Shown: positions 3,304 to 26,110 of the stretch, one piece after another
Layout of the letters: each line of letters begins with the position of its first letter
How positions within the stretch are numbered: position 1 is the stretch's first letter
DNA from: a virus
Length of the DNA: 45,550 bases
IMG/VR virus record: IMGVR_UViG_3300045116_000567
Location: 1 to 45,550 of that record
Direction: 5' to 3' (one strand)
The notes under the pieces: model-generated
Databases searched by the model: none
Told to the model about the DNA's origin: nothing
The model's input: the letters and a program-made list of their open reading frames with translations, nothing else
Program-made: the position numbers and the translations under genes

Positions 3304-3325
3304 CTGATCAACTCCTCACTAATCG

Positions 3326-5236
3326 CTATTTTGCCATAAGGGCACGAAGTTTGGCAAGCGTAAAGTCGACAGGCAGCTCACCCTTCGCAATATACGTCAC
3401 ACAATGTTTCTCTGCGAAGGCCTCGCCATACCTGGAAGCCCAGTCAACAAGCCTCTCGGCGACGGGAAGATACCGCGTCTCGTCAGCAACATCCACCACC
3501 TCTTCAGGGGTAGCATCCTCTGGCGTCACGGCCTCAACCGGTTGCCTGGCAAGCCCGCTGCGGACGAAGTCCACACACTCCGATGTGGAGACCGCCATAA
3601 GACTGGTAAGACTCTCCAGATCAGCCCCTTCCACCTGGGTCCTGATCTCATCCAGCGTCCTCTCTCGCTGAGTAAGCGAGAGAACCAAGGCCGCATACTC
3701 CCTCGTCAGCCCCAAGAGCTTCTCTGCTGTCACAGCATGGGCTCTCTCAGAGAGGACATGCTCCGACGTAACGGTCTTCCACTCCTGCCGAAGAACCCTG
3801 ACAGTCTCGTCCATCTCTGGAATCTTGGCATTGAGCTCGTCGAGCTGCGCCTGCTTCTCGGAACAGTCCAGGCACTCGCGGGGAACCTTGAGCCCACGGG
3901 CAGCCATCAGTTGCTCGACCTCAAGGTACTTCTGCTGTAGATCCCCATCAGAGAGACAATCAAGACACATCATTGTGTCCCTCCCCTCCGGGGGAGTCTC
4001 ATCCTTCCCCTTATCGCACCCCAAAGCCTTCGCCTTCCGCGAGACACAGGCTAGGATGGCCTCCTTAGACCCCTCGCCCTTATAGCGGCCAATCAGCCTC
4101 CGGGCGGCCGTCACATGAGCACAGTCTGGAACTGGGAAGCTCTTCTTCGGTCCGCAGAAAGTCGACGGGGCAAGCGCCTTTCGCTTCTCGGTGGAAAGCT
4201 TCGCGTCCTGCTCCTCAACTTCGCCTTCTAGCTCCTCATTCAGCCTCTCAGCCATCTCCTCAGTGAAATTTCCCTCATCCTCAAAGAGTGTCCTGAGGGC
4301 CTCCTCAATGGGGTCCGGCACTGGGGCAGGCTGGGCCTCATCAGGGGTAGGCTCGGTCTGGGCAGCTACAGGAGCCTCGCCGGGAACATCTGCCTGGTCC
4401 GGAGGAACCGGCTCCTCATTCTCCTGGACAGAGTCAAGAAGTCTCATCACTACGGTAGCCTCCTGCCAGGCAGAGGGCACCGTACTGACACCCAAGCCCC
4501 CCTCCGCAGGCGGAGACGAGTCAATGAATTCTGCCGACTCAATCTTTGCATGTCCATCGGCAGGACGGTTCACAGCAGAGCACTCATCATAGGTGGTGTC
4601 ACCAACGACGAGGTACATCGTCCGTCCGGTCTCCTCGTCCTTCACCCCTCGGGAGTGGGTACAGGACTCCTTCACCCAATCGGTCCCACATATACTACAG
4701 AGGGCTTGCCGTGGACGCTGTGTGATGGAGATCCCCTGATACCTCCCATCAAGAATCTTCTCGATGGCATCAGAGTCGGTGATGATAGCCTCAAGTCTCA
4801 TCTCCCCGACACCCTTCCAGGTCTCGGCCGAGAGCACTCCGGTCTCCTCAAGCATCTGGGCAGCATCAAGCATGTCCTGCTTCGAAGCGGCATCCTGGAA
4901 GAGAGTAGAGACCTCGCTAACCGAGTCAGAGCCAGTCGGAACGTACGGAATGTACTTCCCGCTGGTGATACGCCCGACAGGGTCGGCGTGATCATCGTGA
5001 TGGATCTGGAACGGCCTTAGCTGGGGATAGGTCCACGTATGGCAACATGCCTCCATCCCACCAGGGGAATACATGACATTGTTGGCATTGACCATCCCGG
5101 CATGGGAGGCAGTAATCTCGAGGCGAAGGCCACGAGCGTTCTTCGCCCGCTGGCGAATCTCGGCATTTGAAGATGGACCGCCAGACCGACCAGCCGACGG
5201 TGTCATAAAGAAGAAATCCTTTAGGACTAGACTCAT
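3326..5236 (-). CDS. Prohead protease fused to a scaffold-like coiled-coil region
   Basis: I chose the ATG that overlaps the portal stop (ATGA), because it has GGAGGAGG upstream; the product is 636 residues. The N-terminal quarter looks like a phage head-maturation serine protease: a histidine segment (FQIHHDDHADPVGRI, about 77-90), then RYQGISIT with the probable catalytic Ser near 170, then ECSAVNRPADGHAKI, the usual end of this domain. A Cys/His cluster (CSICGTDW, then CTHS) is inserted after the Ser strand, which is unusual. The rest is acidic and Glu/Ala-rich (about 260-350), followed by a segment like the small phage domain with FCGPKKSFPVPDCAHV. A second CxxC pair around residues 425-465 precedes a long coiled coil. 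Protease-scaffold fusions are known in tailed phages: the scaffold part fills the procapsid and is then digested. Confidence 0.75.
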   Translation of the reverse strand: MSLVLKDFFFMTPSAGRSGGPSSNAEIRQRAKNARGLRLEITASHAGMVNANNVMYSPGGMEACCHTWTYPQLRPFQIHHDDHADPVGRITSGKYIPYVPTGSDSVSEVSTLFQDAASKQDMLDAAQMLEETGVLSAETWKGVGEMRLEAIITDSDAIEKILDGRYQGISITQRPRQALCSICGTDWVKESCTHSRGVKDEETGRTMYLVVGDTTYDECSAVNRPADGHAKIESAEFIDSSPPAEGGLGVSTVPSAWQEATVVMRLLDSVQENEEPVPPDQADVPGEAPVAAQTEPTPDEAQPAPVPDPIEEALRTLFEDEGNFTEEMAERLNEELEGEVEEQDAKLSTEKRKALAPSTFCGPKKSFPVPDCAHVTAARRLIGRYKGEGSKEAILACVSRKAKALGCDKGKDETPPEGRDTMMCLDCLSDGDLQQKYLEVEQLMAARGLKVPRECLDCSEKQAQLDELNAKIPEMDETVRVLRQEWKTVTSEHVLSERAHAVTAEKLLGLTREYAALVLSLTQRERTLDEIRTQVEGADLESLTSLMAVSTSECVDFVRSGLARQPVEAVTPEDATPEEVVDVADETRYLPVAERLVDWASRYGEAFAEKHCVTYIAKGELPVDFTLAKLRALMAK

Positions 5237-9677: not shown

Positions 9678-10135
9678 GGGACAACCTCTGCTGTAAAGGA
9701 GAGACGAAGGACAACATTCTCCTTATTGTCAGCAGAGGCCCCGGCAGGGCACTCTATCCTGCACCAGAACGGCCTCGCGGCAGCGATATCACCACCAAGG
9801 GCACTCCCTATCTGAGTAATATCGATGTAGTCGCCATAGTCAGTAGCAGACCACTCCGACTCCGTCGGCTGCGCAGCCCCAACCCTAAGTTTCACCCCAT
9901 GTCCCGTCACCGTCCCCGACACATCGTCATCTCCATACCTGACGACAGGAGTCACTCTGATGTGAGTGTAGTACTCCACAGCGGTGTCAGCCTGGACGAA
10001 GAGCTTCGATTCGACAACCTCACCAAGCTCACCATCGTGGGTTGTAATGATTGGCAGCTTGTCGTCATCGACATCATAGTCCTTGTATGAAGCATACGCC
10101 CCTGCGGACACTTCCCGATAGAGACCTAGAGCCAT
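9674..10135 (-). CDS. Probable beta-rich virion protein downstream of the terminase
   Basis: The 153-residue frame starts MALGLYREVSAGAYASYK at the ATG one base after the terminase stop (TAAGATG). A TTG four codons upstream is possible but would lie inside the terminase. The sequence alternates short hydrophobic strands and polar turns (EYYTHIRVTPVVRYGDDDVSG, then NKENVVLRLSFTAEVVP), which looks like a single beta-sandwich domain. No long helix, membrane segment or catalytic motif is present. Candidates are a head fibre, decoration or neck protein. Translational coupling to the terminase is likely. Confidence 0.55.
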   Translation of the reverse strand: MALGLYREVSAGAYASYKDYDVDDDKLPIITTHDGELGEVVESKLFVQADTAVEYYTHIRVTPVVRYGDDDVSGTVTGHGVKLRVGAAQPTESEWSATDYGDYIDITQIGSALGGDIAAARPFWCRIECPAGASADNKENVVLRLSFTAEVVP

Positions 10136-10136
10136 C

Positions 10137-13100
10137 TTAGCGCCCAATCCTTAACTTCTTACGCCTCAGTCCGCCAAGCATCGTATCATCGTCCTCTGGA
10201 GGCTCGTGACCCCAGTATCTTACCACACCACCCCCCAACACACCCCGAGGAGTCCTAGACCACCTTCGATGGTGGTTCGGAGCGGGACCAAAGGCCTGCC
10301 CAGGCAAGAGAAGCCTTGTCGGCTTCTGATCCTTCGGCGGTACATAACCAATGTTGATCCCGAGTGGATCAAGACCACCAGCGTAGAAGGATGGAAACTC
10401 CAGCCTCACAGCGATAAGGGCCAGGTTGAGCGCGTCCAAGCGGTGGTCCCCCCACTTTGGCTCCTTGACCTCATAGACAGGGACGCCAGCAGGAGTCCTC
10501 TTCCCGACAACATAGTTATTCAACTGTCTCGTCATGACAAGGTCGGAGCGGGGATACTTTATCTCCGCCAGCTCAAACCGCCGGACCGAGTTCTCAACCA
10601 TGAAGACTTTGCTAGGAACCTTCCTAACCTCTCCATTGATCCCCTTCAACTCCATCTTCGACCCGAAGTCATAGGTCTTCACGATATTCATGAGACGAGC
10701 ATCAATTGGATTCTTGCCAACCACCCTCCTTCCCTCATGCTGAAGCATAGCCCCACCATCCCCGCCGCCGGCATCAACGTAGATCCAGTGCGGAACCCAA
10801 ATCCTGTTCAACTCAAGGATCCGGGCGATCCCAGACGGCGAGGTAAAGTCCTTCTTCGGAATGTTCTCCGCCCAGACCGTGTACGAGCAGTGATCCCCCC
10901 CCTTCAGGGTCGCAACGATGGCAATCTCCGTCCCATGCTCCTTATTCCAATCGACCCCAAAGGTGTAGACAAAGTTAGGATTCCTAGGCATAGAGCCATA
11001 CTCAAAGTCGGCCTGAGCCTGGGTGACCAGGTCATCCCGGTAGACTCCTACACCAGCTGGGGTGAATTTCGCTAGGACCTCCTGGTCCCACGCCTCCTGA
11101 CTCGAACCGAAGTCCTTCTTGATCTGGGGCTCAACAATGTCCCAGTCAGGACGGAGGGTTGCCGGAACATAGAACTCAGCGAAGTCAGGCCGCGACTTAC
11201 AAACTGACTCGAAGTAATCCCCTGAAATGCCGGATGGCGTCGAAGAGATGATGAACTGTGTCGTAGGCCGGGTATAGAGGATGGGGTTGACAACCTTCGT
11301 CAGAACATCGCTAGAGACGAAGGCCCCCTCATCCAGGACGACTAGGTCGGCGTCCTGGCCCCTAGCCGAAAGCCCCTTCGAGCCACTAGAGTCACCAGAG
11401 GCAAAGCCAGAGATGACATTGCCCCCCTTGACGTTCTTATCCGTAATGATCGAGATGACCTGTGGAGATCCTCTCTTGTCCCTCCCAATGTAGGGAGCAA
11501 GATGTGGGGCCAGGGCAAGGAAGGCCCTCATCCTATCGAAGAGGTTCTCTATATGGGACTTCTGCGGAGCAAGAACGAGGACCCTGATATTCTTCCTAAT
11601 CTTCCCGCTATCTGGGTCACGGAGGGCCCCCCCCGCCGAGGTGAAGATATACCATAGGATAAATACAGCCAGTATCGTACTTTTCCCTGTGTTGTGGCAA
11701 TAGAAACCATTAGCAACAAAGTTGTGCGTCCCCTCAACCTCGATGTCGTACGTCGGGGCAGAGCCCAGCAGCTCTATAGACCTAACCCTTAGGAACCTCG
11801 CATTGCCAACAACAAACCCGCTCGAATCCCTCGACTTCTGCTGTAGCAGAAATGCAACCTCCTCACACGCCTCCTCCTTTCCGTAGATCGGGCCAATGAC
11901 CTCAAGAAACCTTAGAATGTCACGTCCCGAGGATATATGGAGCTTCCAGACCTGCCGGTGCCGGGGAAGCTTTGGCTTCTTGTCCTTCCTGATAACTGCA
12001 AGCACTCCAGCCTTGAGCAGTAGGAGCCTGACCTGATCAAGCATTTGCCTGGATGTCGACGTGAGGCTTACATCACATCCCCACTCATTCCCACGCCCAG
12101 CTTTCCTCCAAAACGAGACGCTTCCGTCACCAGAGAACATCCTGTTGATAAGGAGAGCAATGGACAGCCAATCCCAGCCCCAGACACAGGACGGTAAGGT
12201 TTTATTGCTGGATTTCCTGCCAAGCAGACCTAGTCGGAAAAGTTCGGCGGTCAGAAGGTTATCAGTGTTCTTCCTCCCGTCTGTGATATGGACATCCCAG
12301 CCATTACCCTTTGGCCTCTCAGAGCAGGGATAGCCATACCTCTTCAAGGCAATAGCCTTCACCTCATCGACCATCCGCCTGTTATTGTTTGTGAACTTCG
12401 GCGTCTGGTTACCACCGGTAATGTACCCGTCCGTCAGGAGATATCCCAGCAATCTAGCTAGATCGGGCTCGCTCCCATTTCCCCACACGCCATAGTCAGA
12501 GATAATGGAGAGCCACGCACCCTTCTCAAGACCATCCTCAATGGAGATCCACCCGGGCTGGAGGCCACGAGAAGAGAGGTATTCTCTTCTCTCCTTGCGA
12601 TATCCCCAGAACGGGTGGTTTGCTGTGCAATCTACCGATACTCCATTGCTCAGCTTGATCCTGTAGACTAACTTTTCCCCATTCTCCCAAGATCCGGTGA
12701 CGGAGGCTACCCGTTGTGTCTGGTCCCCTGATAGGGAGACAACACAATCACCCACCTGAACGGCCTCTACTGGCCGCCAGCTCCCATCTGCCAGAAGTAC
12801 AGGAACCCCTGCGGGAAGACAGCGCCTTCCAAATCTCAGTACCTTCCGCGGAGAAGGACACATCAGTGCTCCGCGCTGGTAGTCCCATGCTCTCCATGGT
12901 CTCCCACTATCAGGGTCAACGAGATTCTCCTCCCCCCAGAGAAGTGGAGACCGCGTGCTATTGATGGACCTCCAGTCCTTATCGGAGAGCATCTGGGGAA
13001 GGGCTGCCCTAACCTTTGGATCTACAAAGTTCTCATCATGTGGGACGAAGTTACAGGCGACGGCGAAGCCATCCTTATAGAAGACGCCATCATCAGAGGT

Positions 13101-13214
13101 AAAGTTGTTGTACTTCCCTCTAGCACGCTCCAGGCACACCTGACAAATAGGATGAAGCAGAGGCGGAACAGTACGCGGCTCGGCAAACTCAAGTTTTGGA
13201 TCATCGGAAATCAT
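10137..13214 (-). CDS. terL: Terminase large subunit, intein-containing
   Basis: The 1025-residue precursor is the ATP-driven motor and nuclease that packages DNA through the portal. The N-extein ends in FGRR (residue 131), and the C-extein resumes at TGKST (509), so the Walker A motif GRRTGKST is rebuilt only after splicing. Walker B is LVVLDE (about 624-629) and the coupling motif is SSTPSG (about 657). The RNase H-like nuclease domain has acidic residues in FGVDW (D755), IYVDAGG (D814) and HRLDALNLAL (D927). The spliced protein would be 648 residues, normal for phage large terminases. A CxxC pair occurs at residues 24-27 (CQVC). No SD precedes the ATG; TGTAAT lies 5 nt upstream, so it may be leaderless or coupled. 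Confidence 0.93.
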   Translation of the reverse strand: MISDDPKLEFAEPRTVPPLLHPICQVCLERARGKYNNFTSDDGVFYKDGFAVACNFVPHDENFVDPKVRAALPQMLSDKDWRSINSTRSPLLWGEENLVDPDSGRPWRAWDYQRGALMCPSPRKVLRFGRRCLPAGVPVLLADGSWRPVEAVQVGDCVVSLSGDQTQRVASVTGSWENGEKLVYRIKLSNGVSVDCTANHPFWGYRKERREYLSSRGLQPGWISIEDGLEKGAWLSIISDYGVWGNGSEPDLARLLGYLLTDGYITGGNQTPKFTNNNRRMVDEVKAIALKRYGYPCSERPKGNGWDVHITDGRKNTDNLLTAELFRLGLLGRKSSNKTLPSCVWGWDWLSIALLINRMFSGDGSVSFWRKAGRGNEWGCDVSLTSTSRQMLDQVRLLLLKAGVLAVIRKDKKPKLPRHRQVWKLHISSGRDILRFLEVIGPIYGKEEACEEVAFLLQQKSRDSSGFVVGNARFLRVRSIELLGSAPTYDIEVEGTHNFVANGFYCHNTGKSTILAVFILWYIFTSAGGALRDPDSGKIRKNIRVLVLAPQKSHIENLFDRMRAFLALAPHLAPYIGRDKRGSPQVISIITDKNVKGGNVISGFASGDSSGSKGLSARGQDADLVVLDEGAFVSSDVLTKVVNPILYTRPTTQFIISSTPSGISGDYFESVCKSRPDFAEFYVPATLRPDWDIVEPQIKKDFGSSQEAWDQEVLAKFTPAGVGVYRDDLVTQAQADFEYGSMPRNPNFVYTFGVDWNKEHGTEIAIVATLKGGDHCSYTVWAENIPKKDFTSPSGIARILELNRIWVPHWIYVDAGGGDGGAMLQHEGRRVVGKNPIDARLMNIVKTYDFGSKMELKGINGEVRKVPSKVFMVENSVRRFELAEIKYPRSDLVMTRQLNNYVVGKRTPAGVPVYEVKEPKWGDHRLDALNLALIAVRLEFPSFYAGGLDPLGINIGYVPPKDQKPTRLLLPGQAFGPAPNHHRRWSRTPRGVLGGGVVRYWGHEPPEDDDTMLGGLRRKKLRIGR
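11691..12821 (-). other. Intein with LAGLIDADG homing endonuclease inside the terminase Walker A
   Basis: This in-frame insertion of 377 residues is bounded by Cys1 (CLPAGVPVLLADGSW) and the terminal His-Asn (NGFYCHN), with Thr as the +1 extein nucleophile. Block B is TANHPF (T66, H69). The two LAGLIDADG-like helices are LARLLGYLLTDGYI (about 121-134) and INRMFSGDGSV (about 225-235), each with the acidic residue kept. The endonuclease therefore looks intact. Block F is TYDIEVEGTHNFVANG. Insertion at the most conserved point of the ATPase P-loop is the usual choice for terminase inteins, because precise deletion is hard. The element self-splices and can home into intein-free alleles. Confidence 0.92.
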
Positions 13215-14821: not shown

Positions 14822-17800
14822 TTACATCCTCCCATGTCTCCTTGAGGGATGGTTGGGGCCTGGATTCGGTTGAGAGTGAGCCAACTGCCCCACTGCACGG
14901 TTATGAAGCTCCTCCCGCGTCTGGGCTCCCCCATACTGCGCCCCCAACTCCGGGGCCGGAAGCGTCGCTGCCCCCTTCCGCGCTGACGGAGGGATAGGTG
15001 GCGGGCGCCTCGGCGTAGGGGGGGAGACCCGGCTCGGCCCCTCAAGATCCACCCGGGCCCTCATCCTACTCCACTCCCTCACTACCTCCAGATCCTTCTT
15101 CAGGAAGGTCTTGGCACCAGCCCTCTCGACAATCTCCGTCAGGACACCGGCAACGGCAGACTTCTGCTCCATCGTAAAGGCAGAGGACATCATCATCGGA
15201 GGAGCATTAGTGATGGACCACAGCCCTATACGGGTGCTCTGCCAGTCACCCTTCCGCTCCAGCCTCTCCAGGGCCATTGTGTCCTGAACCTTCTGCACCC
15301 TCATAATCTCGTCCTGGATACCGGCAGAGCCTCCCCAGAGCCTTGCCGGTGACGGATCTATGAGGGAGACCCTCCCCTGCCTATCGATCAGGATGTTATT
15401 CGGGTTGATATCAGAGTGGGTAAGGTTCCTTCGGTGAAGAGTCTCAACCCCCTCTCGCAAGCTCCTTATCTGCTGATCGGAGAGACTCTTCCCAGATTTC
15501 ATCAGATCATCCAGTGTCTGAGTCTCCCCAAGAGACTCCATGAAGAGAGTCTTGAACTCCTCCTCCCCCTTATTGAGAATGGCCCTCCCGCGGCCATAGG
15601 GTGTCGGAGAGATAGTCCCCTGGAGAGTCTGAAGCCCAGCTACCTCACCCTCAATCTGGGCTGTCACATACCCAGTGTCCTTCCCCCTCAGATTGTAGAG
15701 TTTCCTGACGTACCGAAACTTCTCACCACCAACCTCTGTCTCCATGAGGTGGACAGCCCCAGACATCCCCTCTCCAACACCGCTGAGAGTCTTCACAACT
15801 CTCCCGCCCTCCAGTGCCTCCATGAACTTAGGGTGTGCCAAGACCTCCTTCAAGACATCGGCACTCCCAGGAGCGATCTTCAGAGCTCTTGCCAAGCCCC
15901 TGGCAGCATCCCACCCAGTCCCAAAGTCTGTCTGCTGCTCCCTCTGGGCACCAGAGAAGCCGACATTTTGGAATCCCTCCAGGGTCCTTGGATGGCCCCT
16001 TCTGTAGAGGGCCCCTTCGACACGAGAGTAGGCGTAGTCCGTCGCCTCCCTGGTAGCCGATAGGAGAGCCGCCCCCACCCCCGCCATCAGGGCGGCACCA
16101 CCGAGGACAGCGGGGAGGATCCAGCTGGCCTGGGCCCGCTCCCTCATAGCCACCGTCGCTGGCGACTGTGACGGGGGGGCAGAGGGAAGCGGAATCTCAG
16201 GCTTTGGCGGAATTACGGTCTGGCTCTGCGAGGAGGCCCGGGGATGGAGGAGCTTGGACTTAACCACGCGCCGATCCTCCTTATAAAGGTTGAGCCTCCT
16301 CCCTGCCGGGATCCGCTGAGAGATCTTCCCCCCTGACATCCTCTGAGCGAGGGTTATCTCCCTCGCTATAATGGCGTTCCCGCTTGCCACGGGGACAGAC
16401 CCGATCTGCTCAGCCGCCACAGCCACCGACTGTGTAAGACGGTCAATGACATCGGAAGCACGGCGGTGCTCTGCGTCCGAGATACGGAGATGTCGGACAC
16501 GATCCCTATTCTCATAGTCCCACCGGTGTAGAGCCCTCTTTACGTCACCGGCGGGGATCTCCACCGTCGGGTTAACCTTCCTGACGATCTCGGCCGGGGG
16601 CTGGTAATGCGGCATATGCCCCGGGAGTCTCCCATGTATGTCCACCCAGCTCACACCGGAGGCTAGTAACCTCTTCTCAGCGGCAAGCGCTTCGGCCGCT
16701 GCAAGGGCCTCTGGCTTCAGGACGTTATGCCATGCCCACCTTACATCCGGCTCCCTGATGTAGGTTGCCATCAGCTCCTGAGGGTCACCCCTCCACCCGC
16801 GCTGCATATTCCAGAAGGTGATCTGCCTCTCGGCCTCATAGCTCATCCTGGGCGATAGCCACCCCCAATCTGCCCTACTAGCAATCGTCGGTAGCGTCCC
16901 AATCTCGTCAAGAGCCGGCGAGGCCACCGTCTTGAGACGCCCGACTATGGCTGCCTCCGCCCTCCGGGCTGGAGTAGCGATCCTCCTCAGAGCTCTCTCA
17001 AGAAATCCTAGTACCGTCCCACGGACAGAACTAAGTCCCGACCCGAAGTCGGTTAGCTGCTTCCTTGATATGGAAGCCTCACCCCTCTCCCCAAAACCTG
17101 GGATCTCACTGTCGTGGTACCCCTGGAGAGCCCCAGCCACAAGCCTCGTGGCGAGGTAGGTACCCCCGATCACCCCTGCCCTCAACCAAGGGTTGGCCCC
17201 CCTTGAGAGGTAGGCCGCCCCGCCAGCCGCGATGGCTCCCCAGAAGGGTCCAGTCTTCTGCCTCGAAGCAAGGAGATCAGCCCCAATGGCGACGGCAACG
17301 GCATAGGGGGCAACCCTATGGAGGAGTGGTCCCTCCGCAGCCCTCATCCCCTTCAGAACATCAGAGACCTGCTCTGCCCCCTTCGCAGGGGCGGGAAGGT
17401 TGGCAACCCCCAAGGCCGAGGAGGAGAGGGCATCCTCAGCCACGCCACCCAATTTCCGGGCAAAGTCATGCATCCTCTCCCGGTCGGAGGGAAATCTCAG
17501 ATCGAAGCGATGGGTCACCCCCTCATGGATGACCTGTGCCCCAACTGCCCTGGGGACCCTCTTCCCCTGCCTCCTCAATGCCCTCCGGGCCGTATCGGAG
17601 TACCCAATCCAGAGGAGTGAATCCTCTCCCGGTAGAGCTCCCTTCCTCTTCAGGTGGGCGAGGGCCGAGAGACCCTTAGTATTCTCCCCCGAGATGAGGA
17701 TCTCTGCCCCTTGGGAGATATCATCATTCCAGAACTTGGCAGCATCCTCCGCCGCCTGGTACTTCCTCATCCTCTTCAGGAGGCCAAGGCTGAGTGGCTC

Positions 17801-18457
17801 CTTCCCCTTGGAGAGGTGATGGGAGACAATCCCGGTCTCCCTCTCAATGAACTCAAGAAGCTCGGCATCCTTGAGGGCATACCCCTTGAGATGTTCAAAC
17901 TCACTAGGGGTACCACCCAGGAGCTTCCATATCTCCCCGCCCGAGACACCAAGTTTCACTTTCCCTGTAGGGGACTTGCCAAGAGCCCTCTCAAGGTCAG
18001 AGGCGAAGGACTCCAGGGACCACGGACGATGGGGAGAAAGGCCAGGAGTCCTCCCGAAGATCTCCTTGGCCACATCCATCATGTCGACGGAGCGAGCCCG
18101 GGGCTTTATCCCTCTGAGGCCCCTGGCCCCAGCGATCCTCTCCCTTATGGGGAGGACGGCGGAGTCGAACCTCCTGGAGTTCCACCCGACGAGGATGTCT
18201 GTGGAAAGGATGGAGGCCTGCCGCGGGAAGGCCTCGAGGAGCTCCTTCTCCCTCCCCAAGGCGTGGGCAAGATCCTTGGAGTAGGCATCCCTATTGACAT
18301 GGGCCCACTGGGGTTTCCCCCCATGGCGAGCCCACGCAACGGAGAGCACCTGGTGCTTCCGCCTCTCCCTTGGGGAGAATGGATTCCTCGAACCCTCCGG
18401 CGGGCGAGTCTCTATGTCGAAGTAGAGATAGTTGAGCTTCTGGCTAGAGGAGGACAT
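14822..18457 (-). CDS. Exonuclease-kinase fusion protein with central membrane segments
   Basis: This 1211-residue multidomain protein has three parts. Residues about 8-215 carry the three motifs of a DnaQ/PolB-type DEDDy 3'-5' exonuclease: YFDIETRP (D14, E16), GWNSRRFD (D98) and YALKDAEL (Y193, D197); no polymerase domain follows. Residues about 380-450 and 778-802 are Gly/Ala-rich hydrophobic segments that could cross membranes. TDFGSGLSS (about 469) and TDFGTGWDA (about 843) are an internal repeat. Residues about 888-1060 look like a protein kinase: Gly-rich loop VGEGMSGAV, Lys in VRKL (919), catalytic loop HSDINPNN (1014-1021) and metal-binding Asp in LIDPS (1034). The Pro-rich C-terminus ends RRHGRM. 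It lies in the virion gene block beside membrane-active proteins, so it may be packaged and injected; that is inference. Confidence 0.75.
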   Translation of the reverse strand: MSSSSQKLNYLYFDIETRPPEGSRNPFSPRERRKHQVLSVAWARHGGKPQWAHVNRDAYSKDLAHALGREKELLEAFPRQASILSTDILVGWNSRRFDSAVLPIRERIAGARGLRGIKPRARSVDMMDVAKEIFGRTPGLSPHRPWSLESFASDLERALGKSPTGKVKLGVSGGEIWKLLGGTPSEFEHLKGYALKDAELLEFIERETGIVSHHLSKGKEPLSLGLLKRMRKYQAAEDAAKFWNDDISQGAEILISGENTKGLSALAHLKRKGALPGEDSLLWIGYSDTARRALRRQGKRVPRAVGAQVIHEGVTHRFDLRFPSDRERMHDFARKLGGVAEDALSSSALGVANLPAPAKGAEQVSDVLKGMRAAEGPLLHRVAPYAVAVAIGADLLASRQKTGPFWGAIAAGGAAYLSRGANPWLRAGVIGGTYLATRLVAGALQGYHDSEIPGFGERGEASISRKQLTDFGSGLSSVRGTVLGFLERALRRIATPARRAEAAIVGRLKTVASPALDEIGTLPTIASRADWGWLSPRMSYEAERQITFWNMQRGWRGDPQELMATYIREPDVRWAWHNVLKPEALAAAEALAAEKRLLASGVSWVDIHGRLPGHMPHYQPPAEIVRKVNPTVEIPAGDVKRALHRWDYENRDRVRHLRISDAEHRRASDVIDRLTQSVAVAAEQIGSVPVASGNAIIAREITLAQRMSGGKISQRIPAGRRLNLYKEDRRVVKSKLLHPRASSQSQTVIPPKPEIPLPSAPPSQSPATVAMRERAQASWILPAVLGGAALMAGVGAALLSATREATDYAYSRVEGALYRRGHPRTLEGFQNVGFSGAQREQQTDFGTGWDAARGLARALKIAPGSADVLKEVLAHPKFMEALEGGRVVKTLSGVGEGMSGAVHLMETEVGGEKFRYVRKLYNLRGKDTGYVTAQIEGEVAGLQTLQGTISPTPYGRGRAILNKGEEEFKTLFMESLGETQTLDDLMKSGKSLSDQQIRSLREGVETLHRRNLTHSDINPNNILIDRQGRVSLIDPSPARLWGGSAGIQDEIMRVQKVQDTMALERLERKGDWQSTRIGLWSITNAPPMMMSSAFTMEQKSAVAGVLTEIVERAGAKTFLKKDLEVVREWSRMRARVDLEGPSRVSPPTPRRPPPIPPSARKGAATLPAPELGAQYGGAQTREELHNRAVGQLAHSQPNPGPNHPSRRHGRM

Positions 18458-20394: not shown

Positions 20395-20736
20395 TTACTC
20401 CACCTGGATCTCCCTCTCCTCCATCGCGGGAGGGGACTTCCTCCCCATCGTAACCCTCAGGACTCCGTCACTCATCTCAGCCCTCACCGAACCCCTGTCG
20501 ATCTCTCTCCCCAGGGAGTACACCCTCCTGATATCCCTCCCCCTCCACTCCCCCTCAATGAGGAGCCTCCCCCCCTTCACCTTGACCTTGAAATCCTCTC
20601 TCCGACCGCCGGGAAGATCGAGCATCACCATGAGGAGACCATCCTCCCCCTCCGAGATCTCCCCGCGGGGGGAGTCACCTCGAGATGGGAACCAGAGATC
20701 ACCCAGGGCATCCTCAAAGAGATAGCGGAATGACAT
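20395..20736 (-). CDS. Small heat-shock protein, Hsp20/alpha-crystallin family
   Basis: This product has 113 residues from ATG with AGGAGG 6 nt upstream, which decides the start over longer readings. The alpha-crystallin domain is recognisable: LLMVMLDLPGGRREDFKVKV, GGRLLIEGEW, VYSLGREIDRGSVRAEMSDG and GVLRVTMGRKSP. These match the conserved strand pattern and the DGVL-x-V/I signature of Hsp20. A C-terminal IQV resembles the IxI/V motif that docks into the domain groove to build oligomers. Small Hsps hold unfolded proteins in solution. Phage-borne copies are known and may protect virion assembly at high temperature. It is short at both ends compared with bacterial Hsp20 (140-160 residues). 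Confidence 0.88.
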   Translation of the reverse strand: MSFRYLFEDALGDLWFPSRGDSPRGEISEGEDGLLMVMLDLPGGRREDFKVKVKGGRLLIEGEWRGRDIRRVYSLGREIDRGSVRAEMSDGVLRVTMGRKSPPAMEEREIQVE

Positions 20737-20766
20737 CCCAGACCTCCTATGGGGTCCCAAAAAGAC

Positions 20767-20785
20767 CCCCAGAAATTTTCTGGGG
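20767..20785 (-). terminator. Possible minus-strand terminator or leader hairpin
   Basis: CCCCAGA and TCTGGGG pair (7 bp). On the minus strand they are followed by GTCTTTTTGGG, which is intrinsic-terminator-like. It lies upstream of the small heat-shock gene, so it could block antisense transcription coming from the RNA locus or act as a leader for the heat-shock mRNA. The T-run is short. Confidence 0.3.
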
Positions 20786-20837
20786 AAAATTTAATCCCCC
20801 ATAGTGCCATGTCAAGGACCCCAGGGAGATTCCCCAT

Positions 20838-20980
20838 GGAGGGGGTTGCCCCACGGGGATGTCAATGGGGAGAGGGGGGACAAGCCGTAGGAAGACTTCA
20901 TGTGGAGAGGGGAGATTGCCCCATAGGAAATTCTATACGGAGAGGGGAGACAGGCCAACAGGAAGATTCATACGGAGAGG
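20838..20980 (+). repeat. Four degenerate 35-bp tandem repeats upstream of the structured RNA
   Basis: GGAGAGG-type starts occur at 20869, 20904, 20939 and 20974, exactly 35 bp apart. A related shorter unit begins at 20838. Each unit reads roughly GGAGAGGGGAGA, then GCC, then AGGAA, then ATTC and TA. GGGG and CCCC segments inside units can pair (for example GGGGAGATTGCCCC). The repeats directly precede the first strong hairpin of the RNA locus, which suggests a promoter, processing or binding array belonging to it. Confidence 0.7.
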
Positions 20981-20990
20981 GGGGTAGTGA

Positions 20991-22140
20991 GTCATTCCTC
21001 GGCCCTTCTGGCTCCAACTTTGTGTGTTCGGAGCCCCCGGGGTTGAGGAGTGACTCTGGGTTACCTCGCCCATAAGAGGTAGGGTTCCACTCAGTAACAC
21101 TGGGTGGTGCCTCGAGTACGCTACGGAGTGTCGTGAGACACCCTGTACTTGAGGTAAGTCCTTCAGCCTCGAAAGAGTAGGCCCCTCAAGCCTGCTTGCT
21201 GCTGGATAACCCGGGGAAATCACTCAGTGAAAAGTCCTTGTGGCGAAATAACTGAGGTTGTCTGGCTCTGCTGGACAGTTTTCCTCCCCTCAGACCGTAC
21301 AGAGGGAAATACTGAGTTGACGCTGTGGAAGTGGGTGAAAAAGACTTCTGCCTGCCGCGGGTAGGTACAGAAGGAAAGTAACCCACGCAATGGCAGGATG
21401 TGACTGCCGCGGAGATGCTCTCCACCACCACAGTGTAGTACGGACGTGCTCCTCGTTGTGCCCCGTGCGTCGAGGGCTGGAGTACGTAGTAGGTGAGGGA
21501 TGAAGGGGTGAGACCCCAGTCCCTCACAAATGCTATGCGCCCGGCCAGAAACGGTCCGTATGGATCGGAACCTGGTAGCGAGGAGGAGAGTGGCAGGGTC
21601 CGTTCAACCCGTTCCTCCTACCGTCAGCGTGAAATGAAGACGCCCAGCAGGTGCGCGCATGGTGCCTGTTCTGGGTGAGACCACTCGTTCCACAATGGAA
21701 CATCCCAGGAACTCTGTGACCCACATGGCAGGAGGGAAAGGGATGCAGGCCCAGCAATGGGCCTTCACCGTTGCGGCTGAGGAAGGTGTTACAGCCGCCT
21801 AGAGGGAACGTAAATAACTAAACACCGTACCCCCCAGCGAACGGTCTTCGAAAGGAGACCGTGTCCCGCCCGCAAAGATGCCCGACATACCGGGGCATGG
21901 CGGGATGTATGCTGGGGTCAACTCTCTCCCCTAGGGAAGTCCCCCTCTGGGTCCCCTGGGGGGAGAGGACCATGAAGTCCTTCCATCTGCCCCCACAGCG
22001 GGGGAATGGAACGCTTGGTTTACCAGGCGAGGGGTGCAAAGGCCCCAGGAAGGACACTCCATAGGCCGTGTAGTGGCCACCCACTAGGGCAGGCGGTGGG
22101 TAAAAGTGGGCCTGCTTCTCCAACGGAGTGTCGGGGGTAT
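20991..22140 (+). ncRNA. Large structured non-coding RNA candidate (about 1.1 kb)
   Basis: No convincing reading frame covers this stretch, yet it is dense in plus-strand hairpins. Clear stems are 20991-21000 with 21045-21054 (10 bp), 21062-21067/21076-21081, 21087-21095/21099-21107, and 21110-21119/21145-21154 enclosing GTGTC-GUGA-GACAC. Others are 21331-21336/21381-21386 enclosing two further stems, 21444-21452/21479-21487, 21493-21500/21520-21527, 21648-21654/21662-21668, 21687-21692/21696-21701 and 21748-21753/21758-21763 closed by GCAA. Toward the 3' side are 21773-21779/21792-21798, 21841-21847/21856-21862, 21924-21931/21960-21967 and 22053-22060/22125-22132. Several pairs contain G-U wobbles, as expected of selected RNA. 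GNRA loops fix the plus strand. Size and phage context resemble GOLLD/ROOL-type RNAs. The exact ends are uncertain. Confidence 0.75.
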
Positions 22141-22191
22141 CACTCTGTAAACTACCCCTTCCTAAATGTTCTAAACCAAATCGTCTTTTTC

Positions 22192-22214
22192 GCCGGGCAA
22201 GGAAAGAGCCCGGC
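22192..22214 (+). promoter_or_regulatory. 5' leader hairpin just upstream of an SD
   Basis: GCCGGGC and GCCCGGC form a perfect 7-bp stem with a 9-nt purine loop, ending 6 nt before AAAGGAGG of the gene at 22233. TCTTTTT precedes it. The same layout recurs before the genes at 27398 and 35292, so it may stabilise or mark the 5' ends of these mRNAs or be an RNA-processing site. Confidence 0.5.
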
Positions 22215-22232
22215 ACAGAAAGGAGGCCAGCA

Positions 22233-22685
22233 ATGGCCTTCGACAACACCGTGTTCGAGGCGTTCGCGTCGTACAACGGCGGAGGGGGGTTCCTGACCCT
22301 CCTCCTCGTCGTCATCGCCCTGGCGGCCATCCTGGTCGCTGGGGTGGTTGTGACCTGGGCCCGGTCGGTCCTTCTGGCCCGCCGGGTCCTGCTCTCCTCA
22401 TCGGAGAAGGACCTCATCGAGGGCTGGATCCGAGAGGAGGAGGACGAGGTCGTCACCCCCGAGGTGGCGGCCACGTTCTCCTCTGAGGAACAGGCGGTGT
22501 GGGAGGGTCTCCTCGATGGGGCAACCGAGGAGCAGGCCTGGCTTCTCGACGCCATCCAGGCGACCCTGGAGGGTCTGGACGAACTCTTCGTCCGGATCCT
22601 CGCTCCCGCCCCCTGGTCCCCCTCCCAGGCGCGGCGTAAGGCCCGCCTGGCAGAGATTAGGCGACAGTACGTCGCCGTCGGCTAG
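22233..22685 (+). CDS. Single-pass membrane protein of unknown function
   Basis: The 150-residue product starts at ATG with AAAGGAGG 8 nt upstream. Residues about 17-45 are a strong membrane helix (FLTLLLVVIALAAILVAGVV), followed by a basic stretch (RSVLLARR). An acidic cytoplasmic-type domain (EGWIREEEDEVVTPEVAATF) and a basic C-terminus (RRKARLAEIRRQYV) follow. The positive-inside rule places the C-terminal domain in the cytoplasm. It is the first protein gene after the structured RNA. No enzyme motif or family is recognised. Confidence 0.7.
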   Translation: MAFDNTVFEAFASYNGGGGFLTLLLVVIALAAILVAGVVVTWARSVLLARRVLLSSSEKDLIEGWIREEEDEVVTPEVAATFSSEEQAVWEGLLDGATEEQAWLLDAIQATLEGLDELFVRILAPAPWSPSQARRKARLAEIRRQYVAVG

Positions 22686-22721
22686 TCCCCCCCGGTCCTG
22701 AGCAAGACCAAAAAAGGCTCC

Positions 22722-22786
22722 ATCCCCTTAACCCCCCATCCTGGGTTCTAAAGGCCCAGCAGGAAAATGGTTTCCTGAGTGGGGAT
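22722..22786 (+). ncRNA. Three-way-junction RNA element in an intergenic gap
   Basis: ATCCCC (22722-22727) pairs with GGGGAT (22781-22786), enclosing two perfect hairpins: CTGGG/CCCAG (22741-22745 with 22755-22759) and CAGGAAA/TTTCCTG (22760-22766 with 22771-22777, loop ATGG). The gap between the flanking genes is 163 nt. It is not a tRNA: no TTCRA-type loop exists. It may be a leader element of the gene at 22849 or a small RNA. Confidence 0.4.
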
Positions 22787-22848
22787 AGAGGGATTCTGGT
22801 TGAGGGAAGAAGTTCCCCCCCGCGGCCAGAAGAAAAGGAGGAAGCGCC

Positions 22849-23058
22849 ATGTTGCGGCGCCAGTTCCACGTCCTCCGCGAGTCGGCTCGCAGGGTCTCCG
22901 TCCCCATCAGGGGACAGATTGAGACCCTCGCCGAGCTGGACTCGGCGGAGGGGTCCCGGTTCTTCCGGGTTCTCAGAGAGGGTCCCTTGACCCTCTCTTT
23001 GGACTCGGAAGAGGTGGTCGGGGTCTGCCGGGTGAACCGGCGAGATCTCGGCTACTAA
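22849..23058 (+). CDS. Small basic hypothetical protein
   Basis: A 69-residue protein with AAAAGGAGG 7 nt before the ATG. It is Arg/Glu/Leu-rich (MLRRQFHVLRESARRVSVPI) with a beta-like second half (PLTLSLDSEEVVGVCRVNRR) and no membrane helix. Followed within 15 nt by a tRNA-like element. No family recognised. Confidence 0.65.
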   Translation: MLRRQFHVLRESARRVSVPIRGQIETLAELDSAEGSRFFRVLREGPLTLSLDSEEVVGVCRVNRRDLGY

Positions 23059-23071
23059 GAGCCGGGTCCAA

Positions 23072-23138
23072 GTCACAGGCTCGAGGGTGAGACCCTCTCG
23101 AAAGGAGGGTAGGCAGGTTCGATCCCTGCTCTGTGACC
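23072..23138 (+). tRNA. Short tRNA-like element, Phe-type anticodon GAA
   Basis: A T-arm (GCAGG-TTCGATC-CCTGC, 23113-23129) and a perfect anticodon arm (CCCTC-TCGAAAG-GAGGG, 23093-23109, anticodon GAA) are present. An acceptor stem TCACAGG/TCTGTGA (23073-23079 with 23130-23136) is extended by a G-C pair, the G(-1):C73 feature typical of tRNA-His. The D region is only 13 nt (CTC-GAGGGT-GAG), the variable loop is 3 nt and position 33 is C instead of U. About 66 nt is short for a bacterial tRNA, so it may be degenerate or a tRNA mimic. Confidence 0.45.
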
Positions 23139-23435
23139 TAATTCCTCTCTCACTTCTTTCCTTCCCCTAGATGGGGTGGTGGAGCCACTGCCCTGGTAGG
23201 TGAGATTCTCCTCATTCCTAGTCGCGGGAAATGACTTCCCCCGGCGCAAGAGAGAATTCTCCCCTGCCAGGAAATCTGGTGGTCCGAGGTTCAAACCCCC
23301 GGAAGAAGAGAGAAAGATCTCCTGAGCACGAGACTAAAAGGCTAAGTAGGGGAATGTCTCCCCCGCGCCCCAAGAGACTCCGCTTCCGGTCGAATGGGGT
23401 TCAAAGGAGGAAAGGAAGCCAAGAAGGAGTGCCCC
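23139..23435 (+). other. Non-coding gap with a T-arm-like segment
   Basis: No gene is convincing here. A tRNA T-arm-like hairpin (CGAGG-TTCAAAC-CCCCG, 23285-23301, one A-C mismatch), a CCAG/CTGG hairpin just upstream and a GAGAATTCTC palindrome (about 23252) are visible. They do not assemble into a full cloverleaf. An ATG at 23394 is in frame with the next gene but lacks an SD. Confidence 0.4.
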
Positions 23436-23990
23436 ATGGCACACCAAGACTGTATCCCCGCCAACGTTCTAAACCGTCGTGTCCAGGAGCAGGACCGAGC
23501 CATGAGCCCGGCCCAGAAGGCCCGGGCCAAGGCCCTCAGGGAGAAGGAGGTCAGGAAGGTCACCTTCAGGAAGGAGGTGGAGGCCTACCTGGAGAGGAAG
23601 GCCAAGGCCTCTCCACCCCTCAGCAAGGAGGATGCGGAGAGGAGGTTCTTCTCTACCCCCTCCCCCGAGGGGAAGAGGAGGCAGATGCTCCTCAACCGGG
23701 AGGAGTCCCGGGTCAGGGGAGACCTCCGGGTCCTCCCCTTCGAGGGGGTTCTGGCCTCCATGAAGGAGGCCAAGGACCTGGAGGCCTTCGGGCTCCGGGT
23801 CCACCTCCAGGCGGAGAAGATCCGCCAGGAGAGGAACCTCCAGGAGGAGTTCCGGCTCCTCCTTGAGCAGGCCCCCCCGGAGACCATCCGGGCGGCCTTG
23901 GAGCTGGGAGGGGTCGACCTCTCCCAGGAACTGTCCCCGGAGCTGTTGGAGAGGCTCCAGGAGGCCGTGGAGGTGGCCCTGGACCTCTAG
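23436..23990 (+). CDS. Charged coiled-coil hypothetical protein
   Basis: The 184-residue product starts at the ATG with AAGGAGTG 4 nt upstream; an in-frame ATG 14 codons earlier has no SD. It is extremely Lys/Arg/Glu-rich and mostly helical (KARAKALREKEVRKVTFRKE, then LQAEKIRQERNLQEEFRLLL). The acidic C-terminus (PELLERLQEAVEVALDL) suggests coiled coils. A single MAHQDC Cys lies at the N-terminus. No motif identifies a role. Confidence 0.65.
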   Translation: MAHQDCIPANVLNRRVQEQDRAMSPAQKARAKALREKEVRKVTFRKEVEAYLERKAKASPPLSKEDAERRFFSTPSPEGKRRQMLLNREESRVRGDLRVLPFEGVLASMKEAKDLEAFGLRVHLQAEKIRQERNLQEEFRLLLEQAPPETIRAALELGGVDLSQELSPELLERLQEAVEVALDL

Positions 23991-24005
23991 GACCCAGGGG
24001 AACCC

Positions 24006-24206
24006 ATGACCCAGAGGGGACTCTGGGCCGTGGGGTTCTTCTTCCCCGGCGAGGGAGGGAATTCGGTGCGGCAGGAGGACGACCAGAATATGGTCATTTC
24101 CCGCTGCGCTGGGTGTCCCCGCCTCTTCCCGGAGGTAGTCTGTCCCCGGCGGGAGTGCCGCTTCGAGAGGGAGCTGAAAGAGGCTCCCATCTGGGGCGGG
24201 AGGTAG
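24006..24206 (+). CDS. Small Cys-rich, probable zinc-binding protein
   Basis: The 66-residue reading carries four cysteines in RCAGC and CPRRECRF (CxxC plus CxxxxC), a likely single zinc site in the C-terminal half. CAGGGGAAC precedes the ATG. A shorter start at 24090 (MVISRCAGC) behind GGAGGACG would give just the zinc domain. Codon use is like the neighbours throughout, so the longer form is kept. Confidence 0.55.
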   Translation: MTQRGLWAVGFFFPGEGGNSVRQEDDQNMVISRCAGCPRLFPEVVCPRRECRFERELKEAPIWGGR

Positions 24207-24345
24207 AGGAATCACAATGAACTCTCCCCATCACGGGAAATCCTCTCTCACTCAGAGCACGGAGAAGAGGGGAATGCCCTTCAACGGGGAAGAGAATCCT
24301 ACTGGGTTTGAGGTCAAGGGGTTGAGAACCCCAAAGGAGGAAAAG

Positions 24346-24744
24346 ATGACGAAGACTGTGTACATCGGTGAGAGGGCCCTCATCAAGGCCCTCCAGGACC
24401 AAGGCGGGCCCGACGCCCGCGGGATCGACTGGGGAAGGGTGATCTCCCCGGCAATCACCTATCGCAACACCCAGGAGAGCGACACTATCCTGGGGCTGGA
24501 GTTGGGGAGGCTCCTCTCCCTCCTCCGCAACTGTGGGAGTGTGGAGGCTCCCATCATCGACTGGAGGGACATCGTGTCCCAGCTCCTCCCCGAGGAGTCC
24601 AGCGGGGACACGGTAGGGGAATACTGGGATGACCTTCTCTCCCAGGCCATCGGGGATGAGAGTCTCCGGTGTAACCGGAGGGAGTCACCGTGCGGGGATG
24701 GGAACTGTCCCGCGCGGCATGGCTGCCACTCCTACGGGAGGTAG
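24346..24744 (+). CDS. Hypothetical protein with C-terminal Cys cluster
   Basis: The 132-residue product has ATG behind AAAGGAGG. A helical body (ALIKALQDQ, LGRLLSLLRNCG, WRDIVSQLLPEES) leads to a C-terminal four-Cys cluster, CNRRESPCGDGNCPARHGC, presumably metal-binding. The 139-nt leader contains a GGGGTTGAGAACCCC hairpin directly before the SD. An in-frame ATG at 24217 exists but lacks an SD. Function unknown. Confidence 0.65.
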   Translation: MTKTVYIGERALIKALQDQGGPDARGIDWGRVISPAITYRNTQESDTILGLELGRLLSLLRNCGSVEAPIIDWRDIVSQLLPEESSGDTVGEYWDDLLSQAIGDESLRCNRRESPCGDGNCPARHGCHSYGR

Positions 24745-24749
24745 CCAGG

Positions 24750-24914
24750 ATGAAGTTCCGAAACTACTCCCGTATCTCGGGAGAGAGGCGCTCCGTGGAA
24801 AGGACCTCCTGGGAGGAGATGATCCTCCAGGCTCAGCAGGAGGTCGAAGAGCTGGTGCGCTCCAGGAGGTTTGACCTCCGGAAGAAGGAGAAGGCTAGCC
24901 GCCGCAACGGCTAG
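24750..24914 (+). CDS. Small basic hypothetical protein
   Basis: A 54-residue protein, MKFRNYSRISGERRSVERTS onward, with GGGAGG 8 nt before the ATG. It is helical, rich in Arg, Glu and Lys, and ends KKEKASRRNG. It may bind nucleic acid by charge alone. It starts 5 nt after the previous stop, inside the same operon. Confidence 0.6.
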   Translation: MKFRNYSRISGERRSVERTSWEEMILQAQQEVEELVRSRRFDLRKKEKASRRNG

Positions 24915-24923
24915 GAGATCACT

Positions 24924-25127
24924 ATGAACTCCATCTGGAATCTCGTCTCCTCCATGGTGGAGGGAAAGTCGGTGGAGATCGTCTCCAAAGCCCCCTGCTT
25001 TGAGATCCTCCACGGGCAGGTTCTCTCCATCGAGAAGGAGAGCGGTGGGAGGAACCCCCTCCACCTCAACCTGGTGGTACTCCTGGACGATGGAACGTAC
25101 AGGGAGTGCTACTGCCAGGCAAGGTGA
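24924..25127 (+). CDS. Small hypothetical protein
   Basis: 67 residues with TAGGAGATC before the ATG. The pattern SVEIVSKAPCFEILHGQVLS then LHLNLVVLLDDGTYRECYC suggests a small beta-barrel, resembling the strand rhythm of OB or SH3-like folds. Two Cys lie in CYC near the C-terminus. No named family is recognised. Confidence 0.6.
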   Translation: MNSIWNLVSSMVEGKSVEIVSKAPCFEILHGQVLSIEKESGGRNPLHLNLVVLLDDGTYRECYCQAR

Positions 25128-25135
25128 GGAAAAAG

Positions 25136-25417
25136 ATGATGGAAAAGAAGACAGTGGCGACCCCCCTCGCGGGGGACCTCTTCAAGGTGGAGGTTGCAGG
25201 CCTCCACGTCGTCCTCACCCTCGAGGAGATGAAGAAGGCAACCTCCGCTATGGAGGCTGCCCTTACCTTCCACTCCATGGAGGGTTCCCCCGGGGGAGAG
25301 GACAGCGACCCCCCCAGGGACCCCGACCCCTGGACCTGGGATAAGATAGATGCCCGGGAGGTCCGGGCTATCCTAGAGAGGGGAGTAAGCCTCTACAACG
25401 AGGAGGACTCCCAATGA
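25136..25417 (+). CDS. Hypothetical protein, possible paralogue of the gene at 25846
   Basis: 93 residues from the first of two adjacent ATGs behind GAGGAAAAAG. The N-terminal half (ATPLAGDLFKVEVAGLHVVL, then TLEEMKKATSAME) matches the pattern of the protein at 25846 (VTPAGESFKVTIREEWEKAA), so the two may be diverged duplicates. The C-terminal half differs: it is acidic and Pro-rich, with WTWDKIDAREVRAILERGVS. It ends in an ATGA overlap with the next gene. Confidence 0.6.
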   Translation: MMEKKTVATPLAGDLFKVEVAGLHVVLTLEEMKKATSAMEAALTFHSMEGSPGGEDSDPPRDPDPWTWDKIDAREVRAILERGVSLYNEEDSQ

Positions 25418-25632
25418 GGGAGGGCGGGTTGTACCGCTGCGGGGCAATCCGCATGTCGGGACAGGCAATTGAGCTGGGCCTCATCCAGGCCCCAGGCGAC
25501 CGGGAGGTCCTTCGCCTGGTAGAGGAGAGGTTCAGGAAGATGTATGGGGAGCCCTGGTCCTCTCTCTTTGCCTCCAACGACCCCGACAAGAGGGATATCC
25601 CCTTCGACCTCTTTGTGAGGTCGTGGGAGTAG
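25414..25632 (+). CDS. Small hypothetical protein
   Basis: 72 residues, starting in an ATGA overlap with GAGGAGG upstream. It is a mixed alpha/beta composition (REVLRLVEERFRKMYGEPWS, then DIPFDLFVRSWE), with one Cys and no clear motif. Coupled translation with the preceding gene is likely. Confidence 0.6.
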   Translation: MREGGLYRCGAIRMSGQAIELGLIQAPGDREVLRLVEERFRKMYGEPWSSLFASNDPDKRDIPFDLFVRSWE

Positions 25633-25636
25633 AAGG

Positions 25637-25834
25637 ATGGATCTACTCCTGGTCATCCTGACCACCATCATCCTCTACTCCCTCTGCACGGCAGGGGTTG
25701 CGGTGGAGGACTTCCTGAGGGAGAAGGTCCAGCGGCGAAGGGAGATCCACTACGCCCTCGCCAGGGTCTACTACCGGGCCGGTGACAGGGTCTCCGCCAT
25801 GAAGGAGATCCAGATGGCAAGGAAAGAAAGGTAA
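25637..25834 (+). CDS. Small single-pass membrane protein
   Basis: 65 residues with an N-terminal membrane helix (LLLVILTTIILYSLCTAGVA, about 3-22) and a basic, helical cytoplasmic tail (EKVQRRREIHYALARVYYRA). The tail has one TPR-like helix pair at most. The SD is GGGAGTAGAAGG. One of about a dozen tiny membrane proteins encoded in the right arm. Confidence 0.65.
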   Translation: MDLLLVILTTIILYSLCTAGVAVEDFLREKVQRRREIHYALARVYYRAGDRVSAMKEIQMARKER

Positions 25835-25845
25835 AGGAGAACAAG

Positions 25846-26097
25846 ATGAAGAAGATCGAAGTAACCCCCGCGGGGGAGAGCTTCAAGGTCACCATCCGGG
25901 AGGAGTGGGAGAAGGCCGCCCTCTTCTTCCACCTCACCCAGGAGGAGGCGGAACACCTCCACTTCCTGCTGGGGGCCACGCTCCAGGAGGAGGAAGGGAG
26001 GTACTGCCTCCTCTGCGGAGACCCCAGGGATGTCTGCACCTGCAAGGAAGACAGTGACTTCCTCAACGGTCCCGGGTGGTGGGAGAAGGCCCACTAG
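25846..26097 (+). CDS. Small zinc-finger-like protein
   Basis: 83 residues behind AAAGGAG. The N-terminal domain resembles that of the gene at 25136. The C-terminal half carries CLLCGDPRDVCTC, a CxxC...CxC metal-binding motif. The combination of a short beta-alpha module with a zinc knuckle suggests a protein- or nucleic-acid-binding adaptor, but no family is recognised. Confidence 0.65.
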   Translation: MKKIEVTPAGESFKVTIREEWEKAALFFHLTQEEAEHLHFLLGATLQEEEGRYCLLCGDPRDVCTCKEDSDFLNGPGWWEKAH

Positions 26098-26110
26098 AAA
26101 GGAGAAAGAG

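Follow-up and report, generated by a model that had tools for sequence, protein, structure and literature searches.

A giant structured noncoding RNA of ~1,170 nt is predicted on the plus strand at positions 20989-22159 of the window, by which we mean the whole 45,550-nt stretch of DNA analyzed here. The candidate occupies the promoter-proximal (leader) segment of the early operon, a point absent from the preliminary description of this DNA, and its 3′ end lies closer to 22159 than to 22140. That description had proposed that the divergent center of the phage genome encodes a giant structured RNA. Strand-specific structure, a conserved position and leader motif, and covariation in a core common to two syntenic relatives bear this out. 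Together with absence from Rfam, they also support the explanation that we favor, to which we give about an even chance: the first ~70 nt of this leader-linked RNA would act in cis, and its body would be a released, replaceable structural RNA. To our knowledge, very few giant noncoding RNAs have been described. Another one outside every Rfam family, at a fixed place in a phage lineage, would provide a natural presence/absence comparison among the members of that lineage.

The window is a 45.5-kb linear IMG/VR record and represents part of the genome of a large tailed phage. Its leftward module encodes the major head protein, the terminase and a portal that is distant kin of the portals of Bacillus phage KLEB27-3, Moorella phage MTATph1 and Acinetobacter phage ME3; an alignment of portals yielded 132 related loci, of which 80 were kept. 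The leftward structural operon begins with an Hsp20-like gene (20395-20760, minus strand; Pfam PF00011, E 1.5e-12). Hsp20 is likewise first in the structural operon of L206, L210, L217, G026, L237 and L251, and this gene order served as the filter for comparing divergent centers. A repeat search located CATACGGAGAGGGG-type repeats of ~30-35 nt at 20850-20984, which probably constitute the promoter/regulator region of the rightward transcript. At the other end of the candidate RNA, a hairpin GCCGGGC/GCCCGGC (22192-22226, plus strand) stands directly before the ribosome-binding site AAGGAGG. The first early gene (22233-22685, plus strand) encodes 150 aa with one probable membrane segment and has no family match, and a second early ORF of 69 aa follows at 22849-23058 (plus strand). 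When the neighbor proteins encoded at 22233-22685 and 14822-18457 were used as search baits, nothing was found. The latter protein (minus strand, 1211 aa) is exonuclease-like at its N-terminal end (PHROG DNA polymerase exonuclease) and has a C-terminal protein-kinase-like domain.

The minimum-energy fold of 20989-22159 (plus strand) contains 45 helices of at least 5 bp, so the at least fourteen plus-strand stems noticed earlier were an undercount. Mean pairing probability exceeded 0.8 in 37 of the 45 helices, compared with 16.7 ± 5.8 helices (maximum 27) in 40 dinucleotide shuffles, and the minimum free energy was -561, compared with -464 ± 10 in shuffles. The structure was specific to one strand. 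Stems of at least 9 bp numbered 15 on the plus strand (3.7 ± 2.0 when shuffled; none of 100 shuffles reached this count) and 3 on the minus strand (4.4 ± 2.1 when shuffled), and GNRA/UNCG loops closed by stems of 5 bp or more numbered 3 and 0, respectively. A GUGA loop at 21133-21136 (5-bp stem), a GCAA loop at 21754-21757 (7-bp stem), the triloops AAC at 21096-21098 (9 bp) and CAA at 21693-21695 (6 bp) and the nested stems at 21331-21386 were all recovered where the preliminary description had placed them; a GAAA loop at 21850-21853 on a 9-bp stem, absent from its list, is the third GNRA loop. The view that the stretch holds no plausible protein was also sustained. There is no conserved reading frame in 20989-22159, the ORFs of up to 113 aa having no match in relatives.

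The predicted RNA opens with a leader hairpin (20989-21056, plus strand) composed of an 18-bp outer and a 6-bp inner stem with a pair probability of 1.00, and the remainder (21057-22159, plus strand) forms the structured noncoding body. Within the body lies a candidate H-type pseudoknot, GCGGCTG/CAGCCGC with GGTGTT/AACACC and an A-rich loop (21773-21826, plus strand), and the predicted fold ends in a 3′-terminal hairpin or candidate pseudoknot, ACGGAGTG/CACTCTGT with GGGGGTA/TACCCCT (22123-22159, plus strand). We rejected H-type pseudoknots as evidence for an RNA because they are non-specific, coding regions scoring equally high. A pattern scan with the A-rich loop CGTAAATAACTAAAC gave 57 viral matches, all attributable to chance.

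Fold energy as the sole proof of an RNA gene was dropped, because the downstream early coding genes are nearly as strong. At 23.4-26.3 kb, the early coding sequence gave 32-35 high-probability helices per 1.18 kb with strongly negative z, and many 300-nt pieces of these genes had z ≤ -4; late structural genes gave just 8-9 high-probability helices. Since the early genes also fold strongly, strand asymmetry and comparative evidence outweigh energy in what follows. That early coding sequences (window 22200-26100, plus strand) fold as strongly as the noncoding RNA is an observation in its own right, with codon usage or real mRNA structure as candidate causes.

The leader hairpin contains the motif GTTCGGAGCCCCCGGGGT (21026-21043, plus strand), which is kept at the divergent center of six phage records. 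Each of these records has a single copy of GTTCGGAGCCCMCGGGGT, or of a close variant of it, between the Hsp20-led structural operon and the divergent early operon. L237, L241 and L251 have GTTCGGAGCCCCCGGGGT with A at position 12, and the variants TTCGGAGCCCACGGGT and GTTCGGAGGGTACGGGGT occur in L242 and G026, respectively. The pattern TTCGGAGNNNMCGGG matched exactly once in each of the six records and was absent from 20 further phage records, related or reference; its reversed control gave no matches anywhere. An IMG/VR scan returned 26 stretches, and the right context was present in the divergent-center ones alone. Bacterial and archaeal genomes gave eight matches; none had the leader context, and all were discarded. 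In relatives, the motif lies ~40-50 nt after a conserved (AT)ACCTAGT element, with ATACCTAGTA standing ~48 nt before it; the window has ATACGGAGAGG repeats at that position instead. In the folds, the motif falls within or beside hairpins, for which one common consensus stem was not established.

The leader motif most likely acts in cis, perhaps as a promoter-proximal element. The put/nut-type antitermination leaders of phages are short promoter-proximal RNAs that are retained when other parts of the operon change. The motif is likewise short, promoter-proximal and kept, but no sequence relation to these leaders was recognized and the ~1.1-kb body of the window RNA has no counterpart in them; the likeness to antitermination is an analogy. 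By itself, the leader motif already offers a specific, testable entry point to how early transcription works in these uncultured phages.

The gene-free stretch after the motif measures ~1.1 kb in the window (1.17 kb for the whole RNA), ~0.88 kb in L241 (IMGVR_UViG_3300035158_000183; counterpart at 3312-4190, minus strand) and ~0.65 kb in L251 (IMGVR_UViG_3300017971_000278; counterpart at 10096-10749, plus strand). For the group of leader-linked giant RNAs that we propose, the leader motif behind an Hsp20-led operon was thus found in six records in total, including the window, and a structured noncoding stretch on the sense strand, ≥0.6 kb long and ahead of the first gene, in the window, L241 and L251. 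L237, L242 and G026 keep the motif and have their first gene within ~60-100 nt. The counterparts in L241 and L251 fold with z of -9.6 and -5.1, and their sense strands are enriched in stems of at least 9 bp (8 vs 2.9 and 18 vs 3.7; 0 of 100 shuffles); on the antisense strand, the enrichment was not significant. In addition, L241 and L251 have a common core consisting of an 8-bp helix, a UACU bulge, a 5-bp helix and the hairpin GGNNG-UGUAAUU-CNNCC, with compensatory changes at 7 of 18 pairs and no pair broken. A looser helix-UACU-helix descriptor has chance matches elsewhere in 3.57 Mb; the L241/L251 instance is compelling because it stands beside the conserved hairpin in both.

The full core was not found in the window. 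A model of the hairpin block found those two counterparts alone and its best window match had E 1.6, indicating that the window RNA is a positional counterpart that shares the leader, its body not being a demonstrated homologue. The preliminary description had looked to BLASTN homologues and to covariation among them. A blastn search of 50,697 phage records, 72,556 plasmids and 41 related viral records found no relative of the window body, and covariation is seen in the shared core of L241 and L251 and not in the window body, for which there was nothing alignable to test on. A new RNA class is plausible, a view tempered by the lack of an alignable homologue for the body.

The first genes after the RNA look unrelated, which argues against a gene-specific riboswitch. 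In the window, L241, L251, L237 and L242, the ribosome-binding site of the first gene is immediately preceded by a stable hairpin. Further structured noncoding gaps with repeated hairpins (CTTGCTTACGCAAG) occur in the early operons of L237 (~2140-2900, minus strand), L242 (~2700-3080, minus strand) and L251 (~11380-11740, plus strand).

A tRNA-like element is located in an early-operon intergenic gap at 23072-23137 (plus strand), 0.9 kb downstream of the giant RNA. It has a canonical T-arm and an acceptor stem of 7 bp, but no normal D-arm. Comparable elements without a normal D-arm are present in L241 (2617-2545 and 2297-2240, minus strand) and L237 (3088-3038, minus strand), and none was obtained from shuffled sequences of any of these loci, that of the window included. 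Of the nearby tRNA-like elements reported earlier, at least the one at 23072-23137 is real in this sense, although ARAGORN calls none there or for the tRNA-like elements of L241 and L237. No tRNA gene was found in the window by ARAGORN or at the Rfam gathering score, and there is no tRNA array. The window element and that at 2240-2297 of L241 are similar to mascRNA-like elements (RF01684) in having an acceptor stem and T-arm with the D-arm reduced or missing; they differ in a sub-threshold Rfam score (31 vs 42.5 bits for L241) and in that the element is adjacent to, and separate from, the giant RNA. In L251, a probable type II hammerhead ribozyme lies between the first two early genes (10936-11003, plus strand); it scores 36.3 bits against an Rfam cut-off of 37 (E 3.3e-5), and CUGAUGAG and the GAAAC core are present. 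The hairpins before the ribosome-binding sites, the tRNA-like elements and the hammerhead suggest that early transcripts of the lineage are cut into pieces, and this is the basis on which we infer release of the giant RNA.

In the explanation that we favor, the rightward (early) transcript would begin with the ~1,170-nt noncoding RNA. The first ~70 nt of this RNA, the hairpin with the lineage-wide motif, would most likely influence early-operon transcription in cis, as an antitermination or a promoter-proximal element, for instance. The ~1.1 kb that follows would be a separate, lineage-specific structural RNA; processing at the hairpin that precedes the first gene would likely free it from the mRNA, and the released body would act in trans. 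The body appears replaceable because L237, L242 and G026 keep the motif and go straight into the first gene. Against this explanation stand the lack of an alignable body homologue, the strong folding of early coding sequence and the lack of a bounding promoter or terminator: no clear sigma-70 promoter or terminator bounding the RNA was found on the plus strand, so the RNA may simply be a long 5′ UTR. In that case, the whole 1.17 kb would be a cis-acting leader of the early mRNA that is never released, serving as a giant attenuation, antitermination or stabilizing leader. Such a leader would agree with the contiguity of the stretch with the operon, the conserved promoter-proximal motif at its start and the absence of a clear terminator ahead of the first gene. 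However, 60-100 nt suffice at the same place in relatives, the motif is kept while length and sequence vary strongly, and the hairpin beside the ribosome-binding site points to an mRNA end that is processed or protected. We consider this alternative unlikely, while giving it real weight.

Recent work showed that ROOL and GOLLD assemble into cages made of RNA alone, with no known role. By analogy, the body could be a homo-oligomeric RNA cage or scaffold that resembles these RNAs and belongs to neither family, a special case of the trans-acting body favored above. Its size, its ornate fold with GNRA loops and candidate pseudoknots, the phage context and the nearby tRNA-like element are in line with such a cage, as ROOL and GOLLD are phage-encoded and often located near tRNA islands (PMC12286853). 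On the other hand, there is no sequence or structure match, oligomerization is invisible from sequence, and a single tRNA-like element is nearby, with no array. We regard a cage as quite improbable. We give somewhat more credence, still tentatively, to an undescribed class of giant RNA that would form a removable first segment of the early transcript, be processed, and serve as a trans-acting scaffold or cage in an operon with tRNA-like elements lacking the D-arm. Such an RNA would also offer defined boundaries for expression, probing and cryo-EM.

Membership in the known families did not hold up, as far as Rfam models can show. ROOL (RF03087) is, like the window RNA, large, ornate, noncoding and phage-encoded, and it is often near tRNA genes (PMC12286853); the window RNA differs in being longer than the 574-position model, in heading an operon behind a conserved leader motif and in having no tRNA array. 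The ROOL model had no match in 20700-22300 at E ≤ 5 by cmscan, and a search of the window and 44 related records gave none, the control genomes in that search also giving no match. GOLLD is similarly very large (often >800 nt) and phage-encoded, and is tRNA-associated (PMC12286853); the window RNA is lineage-specific and leader-linked and matches no Rfam model. The GOLLD model, with its universally conserved 3′ region, was unmatched in a cmscan with all 4227 Rfam families. OLE, HEARO, group I and group II introns (including group-II-D1D4-1, RF01998) and other Rfam RNAs were also negative in the window, with nothing but obvious chance matches appearing at either the gathering score or E ≤ 5. 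What stands of the suggested likeness to GOLLD and ROOL is a comparison with cages by size, phage context and the neighboring tRNA-like element.

Origins and operators are often found in divergent intergenic regions. A DNA element (an origin of replication, or palindromes bound by a regulator) or the remnant of a decayed coding sequence would suit that setting at the divergent center and the repeats just upstream, but is very unlikely in view of the strand asymmetry (15 vs 3 long stems, with GNRA loops on the plus strand alone), the covariation in the syntenic relatives L241 and L251, and the lack of a match in relatives for any ORF of the stretch.

Kinship to the large structured gaps of ME3, KLEB27-3 and SPbeta was rejected, as these have no sequence similarity to the window; that of MTATph1 was examined by folding only. 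The yonN-yonK gap of Bacillus phage SPBc2 (L039:695-2377) and a stretch of KLEB27-3 (L014:17550-18450, minus strand) are both large and noncoding, have a 57-nt block in common (86%) and are possibly parts of one larger RNA; the SPbeta noncoding stretch contains the DUF3800-VIII RNA (RF03075). ME3 has a 1.36-kb ORF-free structured stretch near tRNAs (L034:3553-4908, minus strand; z -5.3) without an Rfam match, which has a 77-nt block (87%) in common with a tRNA array of Klebsiella phage KP13-26 (L038:2001-2077). The MTATph1 stretch (L004:23976-24682) is ORF-poor, with many AGTACTATC/GATAGTACT-type repeats and a minus-strand z of -7.9. In the structural module of the window, a LAGLIDADG intein interrupts the large terminase (10137-13214, minus strand), and the terminase of L003 appears to have an intein too.
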